This document shows positions 7,552 to 58,727 of a stretch of 64,000 bases of DNA, one piece after another; the first letter of the stretch is position 1, and every line of letters begins with the position of its first letter. The DNA is from a virus. The stretch spans positions 124,001 through 188,000 of IMG/VR virus record IMGVR_UViG_3300010399_000031; one strand, 5' to 3'. The notes beneath the pieces are model-generated. The model ran no database searches. It worked only from the letters and a program-made list of their open reading frames with translations, and was not told the origin of the DNA. Both the position numbers and the translations under genes were made by a program.

Positions 7552-8409
7552 ATGGCGCTTTTTCCTGATCCGCTTACCAGTATTTTTGCGGCAATTGACA
7601 CGCAAAATGGGATTACGTTGGATCCAACACAGTACAGTGTCGGGACTCCAACACCCAACAATGATGCAACGGGGGTGACCAACACATCGCTTACGCTCAC
7701 CCCCAACACTTCGCAATGTCCGTACACGGGAGCCGTGACGGTGAATTATTTCCGCTGGCAGTTAACGGATTTAGCCAAACAACTCCCTTTGCCTTTGAAG
7801 TTCAATGGATTGTCATCTTCGCTTCAGATGGCGCTTAAGATGAACGACTACTACGGTACCAACTTTAGCGCTGCCGACATCATCGATAATGCGGTGACAG
7901 TCGCTGGAGATGGTAGCGGAACTTTGACTTTGACGGCGCAGTCGACCTCACTTGGTTGGGTTGGATCAGTGGATCTACCGTTTATCTTGGGTAACTTCGA
8001 TCTATCCACGATCATCACAACCGTTGCTTTGCCGGGTTTGGTTTATCCGGACCGCGATGCAACTCGTCCGTTCGCGGAGATGTACTCTTACTGGCGCGAT
8101 TTCAGCCCTCAGGAGAGCTTGCTGGTTAGTCACACGAGCGCTGATACGGATTTGACTGACATCGCCACAGCGCTCACGCAAAGTGCGAATAACGCACAAG
8201 TAACGTGGGTCACCAGCGGCGCCTCTCGTTATTCTTTGGCCAATGCAAGTATCACGTACAACGGGACAACTGCCGGTTATCCAACGTATTCCAACGGCGA
8301 CTCGCAGGTCAACCTCGATTACACCAACGTAATGGTCGTGCAACTCGATCCGACGGAAAATACCGGCTATTCGGGTAGTCTTTTCATGCACTACAATGTG
8401 CCGCTCTAG
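7552..8409 (+). CDS. Family A virion surface-type protein 4 (two domains, 285 aa)
   Basis: Two-domain member. The N-terminal domain contains the VNYFRWQLTDL segment (family Y-x-R position), NDYYGTNFSAADIIDNAV, LGWVGSVDLPF and LPGLVYPD. The C-terminal domain runs from YSYWRDFSP to SLFMHYNVPL. The gap to the upstream gene is 9 bases with a weak GGAT-type ribosome site, so the cluster is one operon. Divergence from neighbours is high in the strands and loops but landmark spacing is kept, as expected for diversified binding proteins (inference). Confidence 0.85.
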   Translation: MALFPDPLTSIFAAIDTQNGITLDPTQYSVGTPTPNNDATGVTNTSLTLTPNTSQCPYTGAVTVNYFRWQLTDLAKQLPLPLKFNGLSSSLQMALKMNDYYGTNFSAADIIDNAVTVAGDGSGTLTLTAQSTSLGWVGSVDLPFILGNFDLSTIITTVALPGLVYPDRDATRPFAEMYSYWRDFSPQESLLVSHTSADTDLTDIATALTQSANNAQVTWVTSGASRYSLANASITYNGTTAGYPTYSNGDSQVNLDYTNVMVVQLDPTENTGYSGSLFMHYNVPL

Positions 8410-8418
8410 GAGTGAGGT

Positions 8419-9258
8419 ATGACGAACGTCTTTACCCTCTCGGAGCAAAAGCTGACGGATTTGCTTAACATCAGCAATTTGCCGCCGAAATTGTTTGATA
8501 ATACGCGTCTCGTGTATGGTGCACCTCAATCGGTGGTGGGTAGTGGTTATGATACGCAGGTGGTGGCTACCGGTATTCCAGGTCGAGGGTATTACGGAGA
8601 CCAAACGATCAATTACACGCGCATCGATCTTTCGGTGTTGCAAAGTAAGGTGAGTTTATTTGATGTCAACCCCTTTACGGTTGCTTCGATTGTCGCCATG
8701 ATCAATGCGCAGTACGAGACGTTTTTGGAAGTCTCAGACTTGGTTCCACCTAGCATCCCAAGCCTCACCCAAGGTGGCGCTGCCGGCACAGTCACGCTCA
8801 CAGCTGAGTCAACTTCCATCGGCTGGCAAGGTACGGTGGATATCACCATCACGTATGGCAAACCACCTTTGACATCGGTAATTGGGAGTAAGACACTGAA
8901 CACGTTAAAGTGGGCAGACTACCCCTATCGTAACGGATTGGAGATGCTCTGGAATACGGACTTTACGTCCTATCGAGATGCGTTGGTTGTGAAATATTAC
9001 CAAGCCAGCCCGATCTACCTGTCGTTTAATGGTTTCACTGATTACGAGAAGATTTCGGATATCTGCATCCAACTGGGCATCCCGTGGTTTCCAGCGCCTG
9101 GTTGGAATCAACAGGTCTCGGATCACGCAACGGCAGACGTTCCTGGATCGAACACCGTATTTGATCGCGTGGTGGTGATGGCACCCGTTCAAGGGGGGTT
9201 TTTCCGTACCTACGACGGTGCACTCTATTTCCACTACAATAACTTTGACAAGGCTTGA
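8419..9258 (+). CDS. Family A virion surface-type protein 5 (two domains, 279 aa)
   Basis: The ribosome site AGGAGTGAGG precedes the ATG. Landmarks: LLNISN, INYTRIDLS, MINAQYETFLEVSDLV, SIGWQGTVDIT, LNTLKWADYP, then the C-terminal domain from LWNTDFTSYRDAL to GALYFHYNNF. The stop overlaps the AAAATG of the next gene closely. Function is unknown beyond likely virion exposure. Confidence 0.85.
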   Translation: MTNVFTLSEQKLTDLLNISNLPPKLFDNTRLVYGAPQSVVGSGYDTQVVATGIPGRGYYGDQTINYTRIDLSVLQSKVSLFDVNPFTVASIVAMINAQYETFLEVSDLVPPSIPSLTQGGAAGTVTLTAESTSIGWQGTVDITITYGKPPLTSVIGSKTLNTLKWADYPYRNGLEMLWNTDFTSYRDALVVKYYQASPIYLSFNGFTDYEKISDICIQLGIPWFPAPGWNQQVSDHATADVPGSNTVFDRVVVMAPVQGGFFRTYDGALYFHYNNFDKA

Positions 9259-53361: not shown

Positions 53362-54060
53362 ATGACGACTTCATCAGTTGAAACTACACTTCAGTCGCTT
53401 ATGGATGCGATTGTCTCCGGGGAATTCGAATACGGCGTGCCGCCGCAAGACGTGTTGGCGTTGCGCTACAATGTCAGTCGGACCGTGCTGCGCGAAGCGA
53501 TTGCCAAGTTGGAAGCCAACAACGTCTTGGACTCGCGCCCCAAGATCGGCACCAAGGTCAAACCGCGTAGCGAGTGGCTCTTGATCAACCAGATCATCTC
53601 GCAAAACTACTTCAAGAACAATTCCAGCAAGCAGCAGTTGGGTGATACGTTGGACTTGTTCTACACGGCGGGGTCTCACGCCGCGTACCTGACGAGCGGG
53701 CGCATCGAATCCGTGCTCGAAATCTTTCCACCATTTGAGTTCGATGTTCAAGGTGTTGCCGAGATGCACCGGTGGATCTTCGAGAAATGCGGTAACGCCA
53801 TCTACGCACAGATGGGTACTCTCATGGAGGAGTTCATCTTGGCAACTGCGGATGCGGCTGGACTGGAGAACCCGAAGTCCACGAATCTGTACTACCACCG
53901 CAACATCTACTCGATACTCGCAGGAGAGAAGCACCCCAAGACCATGGAGTTTTTACGCCAAGCGTATTCGAATCTTTACCACTCGATGTATCAGTGCATT
54001 TTCTCCGAGTCCACTAAACCGGTCTTCCGAGATACACCGAAAGAAGAGAAGGTGTCTTAA
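53362..54060 (+). CDS. GntR-family (FadR/FCD-type) transcriptional regulator (232 aa)
   Basis: An N-terminal GntR winged helix (about 1-72) has ALRYNVSRTVLREAIAKLEA and the wing NNVLDSRPKIGTKV, then a helical effector domain of FCD type with H-x-x-I and conserved helices through residue 215 (AEMHRWIFEKCGNAIYA, YYHRNIYSILAGEKHPKTM). Bacterial members sense organic acids or acyl-CoA and repress metabolic genes. GC content and codons are host-like, suggesting acquisition from a bacterium. In the phage it may rewire host metabolism or regulate phage genes; neither is shown. Confidence 0.9.
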   Translation: MTTSSVETTLQSLMDAIVSGEFEYGVPPQDVLALRYNVSRTVLREAIAKLEANNVLDSRPKIGTKVKPRSEWLLINQIISQNYFKNNSSKQQLGDTLDLFYTAGSHAAYLTSGRIESVLEIFPPFEFDVQGVAEMHRWIFEKCGNAIYAQMGTLMEEFILATADAAGLENPKSTNLYYHRNIYSILAGEKHPKTMEFLRQAYSNLYHSMYQCIFSESTKPVFRDTPKEEKVS

Positions 54061-54764: not shown

Positions 54765-54796
54765 GGGAGGAAATACTCCTCCCTCTTTTTTTTTTG
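54765..54796 (+). terminator. Intrinsic terminator upstream of the TIGR array
   Basis: GGGAGG / CCTCCC stem with a 7-base loop, followed by TCTTTTTTTTTT. It isolates the array from upstream transcription. Confidence 0.9.
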
Positions 54797-54801
54797 TCTA
54801 T

Positions 54802-54831
54802 TCTAGAAAATTTGAGACATATATAACTTAC
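54802..54831 (+). promoter_or_regulatory. Phage promoter-like motif, copy 3, driving the TIGR array
   Basis: T-C-T-A-G-A-A-A-A-T-T-T-G-A-G followed by ACATATATAACTT; close match to the copies at 20.2 and 42.2 kb. It ends about 15 bases before the first array unit, so transcription would begin at the array itself, on this strand. Confidence 0.65.
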
Positions 54832-54846
54832 TGGATTAGACTAGGT

Positions 54847-55755
54847 ATTTAATCAAACTCCAACAAACACCCAATAAGTATTAGTGTATCAAATTGCCGT
54901 AATCATCCATTGTTGGACAGTGTATCATTGAAAGAATAATCACTCATTAGCCATTAGTGTATCAATCGCATATATTCACCCAGGTGACGTAAGTGTATCA
55001 ATCAGCCCCATTCACCCATTGGAATAAAGTGTATCAATGTCCAATAACCACCCACTGCTTACTAGTGTATCACAGTGAACTAGACACCCAATCGAGAATA
55101 GTGTACCACGTTACGGTATTCACCCAATGGATGCGAGTGTATCAATGCAAGCCATACATCCAAACAAAGAAAGTGCGTCAAGATACCAGAACCACACAGT
55201 ACGAGGTAACGCATCAAACAAGGCAAAACATCCATCGTGAAAGAGTGTATCAGTCGACCCAATCACCCATTGAAGGAAAATGAGACGTATCGGATTAGAC
55301 AACCCGTGATGGCCATCGAATCAAGGACCTCAATTCATCCAGAAAAGGAAAGTGCATCAATGGAACGAAGTCGCCCAAGAGAGTAAAATGTATCAGAAGA
55401 GGTGAATCGCCCGTGGTTATTCAATGTATCAAACGGCCACAGTCACCCAGTATAGCGGAGTGCATCAATAGCAGACATTCACACAAGGTGGGTCAGTGTA
55501 TCATGGAAAGTTAATTACCCATGGCATGAGAGTGTATTAGAGGATCAAAGACATCCAATCCCAAGCAATGTATCATAGTAGGGAATTCACCCAGTTGGAA
55601 CAAATGTATCAAAATGTCGTATTCACCCATTCTTTGAAAATGCACCATCACCCCTTATTCATCCACCAAAAGGAAGTGTATCAAGAAGCACAACTCACCC
55701 ATTGGGTTGTAGTGTATCAACAGCAGCAATTCACCCAATGCGATACAGTGTCGCC
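54847..55755 (+). repeat. TIGR array: 25 degenerate 36-nt units (tandem interspaced guide RNA)
   Basis: Each unit is a conserved edge A-R-TGTATCA (9 nt), a variable 9-nt block, a conserved loop A-N-N-CACCCA (9 nt, often ATTCACCCA) and a second variable 9-nt block. Edges, counted from the R, start at 54848, 54884, 54920, 54957, then every 36 nt from 54993 to 55245, then 55285, 55316, and every 36 nt from 55352 to 55712, with a final partial edge at 55748. 22 of 25 spacings are exactly 36. GTGTATCA is exact in 11 units and CACCCA in 12. The layout and unit length match TIGR arrays, which are processed into 36-nt tigRNAs with two spacers each. The last edge overlaps a GTGTCG/CGACAC hairpin (55748-55766). 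The array fills the 1.07-kb gap between genes. Confidence 0.9.
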
Positions 55756-55812
55756 CACCACGACACACTAAGAAACCATTTTTATTCGAACTAAAGAAAG
55801 GAATAGAGCACC

Positions 55813-57066
55813 ATGAGCCAAGAAACGATTATCCCCACATACAACCCGAACATCTCCGTGATTCGCACGATGGTGCGCTCAGCTTACGACATGCAACTGT
55901 TGCGCATCCAGATGGGCAACCGCGTGACCGCCAGCTTCAAAGTCAAGCTCGGCCTTCGCCAAGACGGCATGAGTGAGAAGGACCTCGAAAAGCAAGAAAA
56001 GGGTCTACTCGATCAGCTACGTGCTTCTTACGCCCGCATCACCGACGGCATCATCGAAGAGCATGGTGAAGACATCAAGGTCAAGAAGTTGCCGACTGAA
56101 AAGAAGTTCGTCGGCGATGAGCTGATTACCCACTACAGCGAATTGTTGCTCGTAGATAACTACCTGGCTACGCTCAGGAATGAAGAGCGACATTTCAAGG
56201 ACATGGAGAAGATCCTAAAGAAGATCCCGGTCTACACCGAGTTCCTCGAAAACGTTCGTGGTATTGGTCCAGCCATGGCGGGCGTGATCATCTCCGAGAT
56301 TGACATCTACAAGGCGCAGTATCCGTCTAGCCTTTGGATGTTGGCAGGGCTCGATGTCGTTCACGTCGGTAAGTACACCGACGATAAAGGGGTCGAGCGC
56401 ACAGTGCGGGGTTGGGAGATCGACCAATGGTACTCCAACGACCAGAACATCGATAAGGAGTTCCTCGCTGAAGGCAAGTACCCGGTTCACTTCGAAGCCC
56501 ATGGTCGTTCGCGTAAAGAGTTTTGTCTCGTGCGACGCACCTACGTCAACAAAGCGGGTGAGCAAAGTGAGCGTGACTCAATCACGTTCAATCCGTTTCT
56601 GAAGACGAAGTTGGTCGGGGTGCTCGGCACGTCTTTCTTGCGTGCTGGTATCGCAACGGTTGATGGTAAGAAGACCGGTGGTGCGGCTCGCTTGGCACTT
56701 GCCAAGGCAGAAGGGTTCGATCCGAAGGATTACGTTGAGATGGACGAAGATCAAGCAGTGATCGTCTACCTACGTGCTAAGGGTCACGAGGTTGTGGTGG
56801 AGCCGAGCCCTTACTCGGTGATTTACAACAACTACAAGAACCGTCTGAACAACGATCCGCGTCACATCGAGAAGAGCGCGCTTCACAAGCACAACATGGC
56901 CATTCGCTACATGGTCAAGCGTTTTCTGGTTGACCTCTATAACCACTGGCGTAAGCTGGAAGGTTTGGTTGTCGCCCCGGAGTATTCGGAAGGGGTACTC
57001 GGCAAAGTACACGGTGAAGCTAAGGAAGCTGGTTGGCAACATCCGCGCTATCGTAGGTCCGCTTAA
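55813..57066 (+). CDS. tasA: TasA: nuclease-less TIGR-associated (Tas) protein with Nop domain (417 aa)
   Basis: Predicted guide-RNA-binding protein of the TIGR-Tas system. Residues 1-145 are helical with coiled-coil character. Residues 145-185 carry the Nop/IS110-C-terminal-like motif FLENVRGIGPAMAGVIISEI (GIGPAMAG at 150-157) followed by LWMLAGLDVV. Residues about 258-345 contain SITFNPFLKTKLVGVL, and a basic helix NMAIRYMVKRF at 361-371 resembles the C-terminal helices of this superfamily. There is no RuvC acidic triad or HNH motif, so it is the TasA class, expected to bind rather than cut DNA unless a partner supplies cleavage. Ribosome site AAAGG about 11 bases upstream. GC and codons suggest good expression. 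An alternative label, degraded IS110 transposase, fits less well because the array is present and the DEDD domain absent. Confidence 0.88.
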   Translation: MSQETIIPTYNPNISVIRTMVRSAYDMQLLRIQMGNRVTASFKVKLGLRQDGMSEKDLEKQEKGLLDQLRASYARITDGIIEEHGEDIKVKKLPTEKKFVGDELITHYSELLLVDNYLATLRNEERHFKDMEKILKKIPVYTEFLENVRGIGPAMAGVIISEIDIYKAQYPSSLWMLAGLDVVHVGKYTDDKGVERTVRGWEIDQWYSNDQNIDKEFLAEGKYPVHFEAHGRSRKEFCLVRRTYVNKAGEQSERDSITFNPFLKTKLVGVLGTSFLRAGIATVDGKKTGGAARLALAKAEGFDPKDYVEMDEDQAVIVYLRAKGHEVVVEPSPYSVIYNNYKNRLNNDPRHIEKSALHKHNMAIRYMVKRFLVDLYNHWRKLEGLVVAPEYSEGVLGKVHGEAKEAGWQHPRYRRSA

Positions 57067-57977: not shown

Positions 57978-58727
57978 TTACTCTATCGACGTAACGCTCC
58001 AGAAGTCTTCAGCCAGATCTGGCGAAAGGACATAGTCGAAGGGCAGGTAGAAGTAACCATTTTCACCCCAGCCCGATCCCCAGCTATTCCTAATAATGAA
58101 GAGACGCTTGATGCGATCGTAACCGACGATCAACACGGCGTGACCACCCAAGCATTGTTCCTTGTTCACATCGGGCATGGGTACCAAACCGCTGGCTGCC
58201 ACTTCGTCCGATTCGAGCGAATCGTAGACGTAGATGCCAAAGGCGATCGGGTAACCCGATGCAAGCGCGTGCAAAAGGTCGTCTTCGGTTTGATTCACAC
58301 GGCGGTACGCAATCGCTTTGTGTTTCAAAGCGTCGTTGTACGCTTCGAGCGAGGGCTTCAGTTTGAAGTTTTCCTCGACGTACGGACACAGCGTTTCGTT
58401 GCAGGTACCCAGCTGTGCGATCACTTTGATGCCGTCGCGGATCTCGGCACCCGAGTCTTCCGTGAGTGTGCCTTCGAGACCGCGCTCGCCGTAGTAGACG
58501 AAAAGGCGCGAGAGACGAATCGGTTGCTCACGCTGTTTGTTCTCGTCGTACTCCAGCGCCCCGACGATGGCGTGGGCCGTGCACGAACCCAACTCACCTT
58601 GGTCTTCGACCGGGGAGCAGCCAGGGCGCAAATCGATCTGGTCGGGAATATCGATCGGTGCAGCTGCCGAGTATTTGTGGTCACGCGGATCGTGTTTGTC
58701 TTTGACACGATTGTACAGTCGCTTCAT
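57978..58727 (-). CDS. Papain-family (C1A) cysteine peptidase (249 aa)
   Basis: Complete papain-type catalytic set: Gln43 and Cys49 in DQGELGSCTAHA, His196 in GGHAVLIVGYD, Asn214 in IRNSWGSGWG. No signal peptide and no obvious inhibitory pro-region (only about 30 residues before the core), so it would be made in the cytoplasm in active-length form. It is the only gene on this strand and has GC-rich, host-like codons, both suggesting separate acquisition. AAGGTGAAAC is the ribosome site. Possible roles: virion or head maturation, or cleavage of host proteins; not determinable here. Confidence 0.95.
   Translation of the reverse strand: MKRLYNRVKDKHDPRDHKYSAAAPIDIPDQIDLRPGCSPVEDQGELGSCTAHAIVGALEYDENKQREQPIRLSRLFVYYGERGLEGTLTEDSGAEIRDGIKVIAQLGTCNETLCPYVEENFKLKPSLEAYNDALKHKAIAYRRVNQTEDDLLHALASGYPIAFGIYVYDSLESDEVAASGLVPMPDVNKEQCLGGHAVLIVGYDRIKRLFIIRNSWGSGWGENGYFYLPFDYVLSPDLAEDFWSVTSIE

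Follow-up and report, generated by a model that had tools for sequence, protein, structure and literature searches.

A probable TIGR-TasA system with a 25-unit guide array in a nucleus-forming jumbo phage

What is the block of alternating short repeats lying between genes of this phage genome, and against which DNA could it be directed? The block sits in a window of 64,000 nucleotides (the window being the whole stretch of DNA that was analysed), taken from a source record that represents a phage genome of 243,403 nt with a G+C content of 50%. Dual-repeat arrays accompanied by solo-Nop Tas proteins, termed TIGR-TasA, were described by Faure et al. 2025 in Science, in a study that leaves open the targets of TIGR arrays, the gain of guides and the role of the nuclease-free TasA (PMC12045711); the term TIGR is absent from a 2026 review of jumbo phages (PMC13282480). 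Here, we present evidence that the window locus almost certainly belongs to TIGR-Tas, and we put the probability of the composite reading, in which a nucleus-forming jumbo phage carries a TIGR-TasA system that acts in the manner proposed below, at roughly 0.8. TIGR-Tas itself has been known since 2025, and it is the comparison of relatives that gives new clues to the evolution and purpose of the arrays, including five nucleus-forming phages with comparable arrays, one guide shared by four phages, the tas-less cultured phage FLC9, and a stronger conservation of spacers than of repeats.

The block itself has the following extent:

54847..55755, + strand: TIGR dual-repeat array of 25 units x 36 nt, with a degenerate first edge and a truncated last edge

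Each unit runs from an edge repeat (AGTGTATCA) through a 9-nt spacer A and a loop repeat (ATTCACCCA) to a 9-nt spacer B, which confirms the alternating edge/loop block with two variable 9-nt blocks described in an earlier note on this DNA. The first edge, starting at 54847, is degenerate (ATTTAATCA), and the last, starting at 55747, is truncated (AGTGTCGCC). The regularity reported earlier also stood, but the count of 22 exact 36-nt spacings out of 25 became 23 upon recounting, with the remaining two spacings (37 and 35 nt) corresponding to one spacer A of 10 nt and one of 8 nt. With up to three mismatches, the pattern ARTGTATCA-N9-ANNCACCCA occurs 23 times in the window, including 21 occurrences inside the array, compared with a mean of 0.84 and a maximum of 3 in dinucleotide-preserving shuffles of the window. 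The repeats are degenerate, their internal variation consisting mostly of transitions, and Tandem Repeats Finder reports just 2.1 copies for the array; two units, at 55279 and 55315, are degenerate as well. Searches of the array region detected neither tRNAs nor any Rfam family. Motifs of the box C/D type are present, as edge and loop each begin with A and end with YCA. In 162 of the 173 edge pairs a G4-C8 pair could form, and pairing or covariation between E3 and E9 was not convincingly supported.

A terminator borders the array on one side and a tas gene on the other, the latter directly downstream on the same strand, with its ATG 57 nt past the array end:

54765..54792, + strand: rho-independent terminator closing the upstream gene (stem of 7 bp, T-run; z = -3.0)
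55813..57066, + strand: tasA-like gene, encoding a 417-aa Nop-domain Tas protein without nuclease domain (NCBIfam, phmmer, Foldseek)

This adjoining gene had been left unmentioned in the earlier note, and with it the interpretation of the block as a TIGR array is upheld. The NCBIfam model TIGR_Tas_endo (NF052498) matches the protein at E=1.9e-26 and 93.4 bits, which is 7 bits under the cut-off of 100, with an insert splitting the match, and the model also matches all 19 aligned relatives. Using phmmer, the window Tas matched TasR (9mty, E=2.9e-8) and TasH (21kl, E=4e-6). Its AlphaFold2 model (pLDDT 82) has a helical N-terminal part, and the ten best Foldseek matches were solved chains of TasR and TasH, followed more weakly by box C/D Nop5 and Prp31. 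Pfam detected no nuclease in the protein, and the RuvC or HNH N-terminus of the TasR and TasH subtypes is absent by both Pfam and the model; the protein is therefore regarded as TasA-like.

The locus agrees with published TIGR-TasA (PMC12045711) in a 36-nt unit in which the edge and loop repeats, of 8-12 nt, are each followed by a 9-nt spacer (A and B, respectively), as well as in its truncated end edges, its adjoining nuclease-less Nop protein and its occurrence in tailed phages. It differs in its unit count (25 in the window and 36-58 in the relatives, where published arrays have 'most often, 5 to 15'), in the length of its TasA (417 aa, including two inserts), in the lack of a called terminator between array and tas, and in its nucleus-forming jumbo-phage carrier. 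With TasR (PDB 9mty) and TasH (PDB 9w03, 9vzx, 21kl), the system shares the Nop core in sequence and fold and a box C-like YCA closing both repeats, whereas the N-terminus of the window Tas is without RuvC or HNH and, while the boxes of TasR are UG/CCA, the box D position in the window is AR/AN and not UG. There is a weak match of the Nop-like region to the IS110 RNA-guided transposases (NF033542, 17.9 bits against a cut-off of 140), but the window protein has no transposase domain, and its locus holds an array where IS110 has one bridge RNA. Similarly, CRISPR arrays of huge phages are multi-guide arrays in a phage, but the window has two alternating 9-nt repeats and 9-nt spacers, no cas gene was seen adjoining its array, and tandem-repeat search barely detects it.

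Based on gene content, the carrier is a nucleus-forming, Chimalliviridae-like jumbo phage. The source genome encodes a nuclear shell protein (chimallin; PHROG E=2e-80), a subunit of the phage multisubunit RNA polymerase (E=4e-92) and a phiKZ-type terminase, whose large subunit (TerL) is 54% identical to that of Burkholderia phage FLC9, this closest terminase suggesting a Burkholderia-like host. Four further jumbo phages from IMG/VR (L002, L003, L005 and L006, 285-315 kb in size; L004 is a near-copy of L002) also combine the system with chimallin, with one array per genome and 36, 58, 42 and 46 units, respectively. A search for Tas in 50,697 deposited phage records gave no match, FLC9 being among those without a detectable tas gene. 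The genes flanking the locus are collinear between L002 and FLC9, with the array-tas pair replacing FLC9 gp166-168. Close to tas, the window and the other jumbo phages share a further gene:

57978..58727, - strand: papain-like cysteine protease (PF00112, E=2.6e-20)

This synteny is found in all five jumbo phages compared. The protease is also present in the tas-less FLC9, with 50.6% identity. For a GntR-like regulator encoded upstream of the array (53362-54060), no counterpart was detected in the four relatives.

Of the IMG/VR relatives, 28 were compared, and 27 of them carry an array of this type next to tas, whereas none was found at L025; an automatic count of 62 units in L021 was excluded because it ran through the tas gene. 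The edge/loop pairs differ by clade (for example AACGAGTCA/AGAAAACCA). The window Tas carries two inserts in the alignment, at approximately aa 183-229 and 280-331, which are absent from relatives of 284-288 aa. Both inserts are found in all six distinct Tas genes on chimallin-bearing genomes (window, L002, L003, L005, L006 and L008) and in L007, whose 71.7-kb fragment shows no chimallin, and never together in the remaining relatives. Judging from this distribution, the inserts could have arisen as adaptations to the phage nucleus or could simply be inherited from a common ancestor.

Does the locus still function? Under one alternative, tas and array persist as a decaying remnant, in line with the two degenerate units noted above and with window repeats more variable than those of the L010-L017 cluster. 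However, the window Tas shares 77-80% aa identity with those of L002, L003, L005 and L006, despite TerL identities of 49-54%, chimallin identities of about 33% and differences at 55-62% of 4-fold sites in tas, which indicates strong purifying selection on Tas and leaves the remnant explanation very improbable.

The guides themselves have a more dynamic history. No guide pair is common to the window and L002, L003, L005 or L006, and one guide is identical in all four of the latter. Approximately 26-28 units can be aligned among L002, L005 and L006, where some unit halves have been replaced with the other half kept, and a few units have been relocated. Further, in a separate clade (L010, L012-L017 and L027-L029), guides are shared only in part beside closely similar Tas proteins, which points to guide turnover. 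In the shared units of L002, L005 and L006, the three related phages from which this contrast is drawn in place of the window's own array, spacers differ by 6.4-8.1%, repeats by 10.3-12.4% and 4-fold sites of tas by 26-38% (0.258-0.384). Fisher tests gave modest support for the difference between spacers and repeats (p 0.007-0.02) and strong support for that between spacers and 4-fold sites (1e-10 to 1e-21). Spacers thus vary less than both repeats and synonymous sites, arguing for purifying selection on retained spacers, and the overall pattern in these sequences indicates that guides turn over, with those retained being held by selection. A possible origin of the window unit at 54992 by divergence from the four-phage guide was rejected, as the 5/18 differences were not significant with spacers B permuted.

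Spacers are expected to be conserved in a guide array, and the reverse is expected in an iteron array. The regular 36-nt period and intergenic location would also suit DNA repeats of an iteron-like or structural kind, but the two alternating repeats of published dimensions, the adjoining tas in 27 of 28 relatives and the better preservation of spacers than of repeats in shared units, opposite to iterons, make that origin extremely unlikely. The earlier note had anticipated, for a structural or iteron array, variable blocks conserved across related phages without target matches. Target matches are indeed absent (see below), but the spacers differ between phages, and the iteron expectation was not borne out.

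For expression of the array and tas, two additional elements are relevant:

54818..54834, + strand: putative phage early promoter CATATATAACTTACTGG (consensus match only)
55748..55766, + strand: hairpin GTGTCG-CCCACCA-CGACAC at the array 3' end (region -7.9 kcal/mol, z = -1.8)

The candidate promoter ends 12 nt ahead of the array and resembles TATATTAC, the promoter of phiKZ and 201phi2-1 (PMC7058600); early promoters of nucleus-forming jumbo phages have AT-rich motifs near -10 (PMC7598289). Similar motifs lie 25 and 39 nt upstream of the arrays in L003 and L007, and they are strand-coherent in the genomes of three relatives (10:0, 11:0 and 11:1). The terminator at 54765..54792 putatively isolates the array from upstream transcription. 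The 3' hairpin is not directly followed by a T-run and no terminator-like site was called between array and tas, and therefore the two may share a transcript, a single early one being plausible from these signals.

By analogy with the published system, the promoter motif would drive transcription of the array at an early stage of infection, the transcript would be cut within the edge repeats into approximately 25 tigRNAs of 36 nt, and each tigRNA would load a TasA dimer. The complex would then bind DNA at sites where spacer A and spacer B match opposite strands, 0-2 bp apart, and most likely block transcription or replication without cutting, given a Tas without nuclease domain. The target would most likely be foreign DNA in the cell, such as a rival phage, a plasmid or the host chromosome, this being proposed because own-genome guide matches are not above chance. 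With moderate confidence, drawing on the family and on the lack of self-sites, we consider that the TasA complex binds and blocks foreign DNA.

Targets were searched for as spacer A followed by the reverse complement of spacer B with a gap of 0-2, following the published cleavage geometry (PMC12045711), and self-targets were compared with three control geometries. Across the whole 243 kb, the 25 window guides had no exact or one-mismatch self-target and one two-mismatch site, and sites with 2-3 mismatches were not commoner than in the controls. In the four related jumbo phages, no targets above chance were found; two guides of one relative have one-mismatch self-sites, a pattern that is not general. 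These results weigh against a TIGR-TasA regulating the phage's own genes or replication through guides fitting own-genome sites. Long retention of guides in three phages would agree with self-regulation, as would three self-sites of seven-base cores at gap 0 in five phages, against a background of approximately 0.2 per offset (too few to trust), and we regard it as improbable.

Another possibility is an early transcription shut-off, in which the guides would silence genes of the host chromosome. The early-promoter motif before the array is in line with such a role, and conserved guides, such as the one identical in four phages, would fit conserved host genes. However, in an exact-match scan of GTDB (84,980 species, one genome each) this guide had 18 matches scattered across phyla, compared with approximately 22 estimated by chance, making host shut-off doubtful, with the reservation that the true host strain may be missing from the set. 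With no mismatches allowed, the same guide had three matches in IMG/VR, all in unrelated genes, and four further guides had 0-4 independent unrelated matches each. Thus, the spacer-pair search against other genomes called for in the earlier note yielded no target for five guides in IMG/VR, one of them also in GTDB, and neither did 267 guides of 21 other arrays in 1.9 Mb of sequence. As target matches are absent, the case for DNA targeting by these guides is founded on family membership. More speculatively, and with rather low odds, nucleus-forming jumbo phages may express a TIGR-TasA without nuclease early on to attack rival DNA under RNA guidance; the phage nucleus and the split guide would then keep self apart from non-self, and the inserts would adapt Tas to that compartment.

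A separate repeat in L009 (approximately 8330-8768) is an 18-nt tandem repeat with units near GGTATATGGTAATGCTAA, perhaps coding, and is unrelated to the TIGR array. Regarding base composition, the spacers of all five jumbo-phage arrays have a G+C content of 44-46%, with genomes at 50-57%; the 44% of the window spacers fits neither the phage (50%) nor a Burkholderia-like host, if the host is such. Additionally, the spacers of these five arrays are purine-rich on the RNA strand (56-59%).
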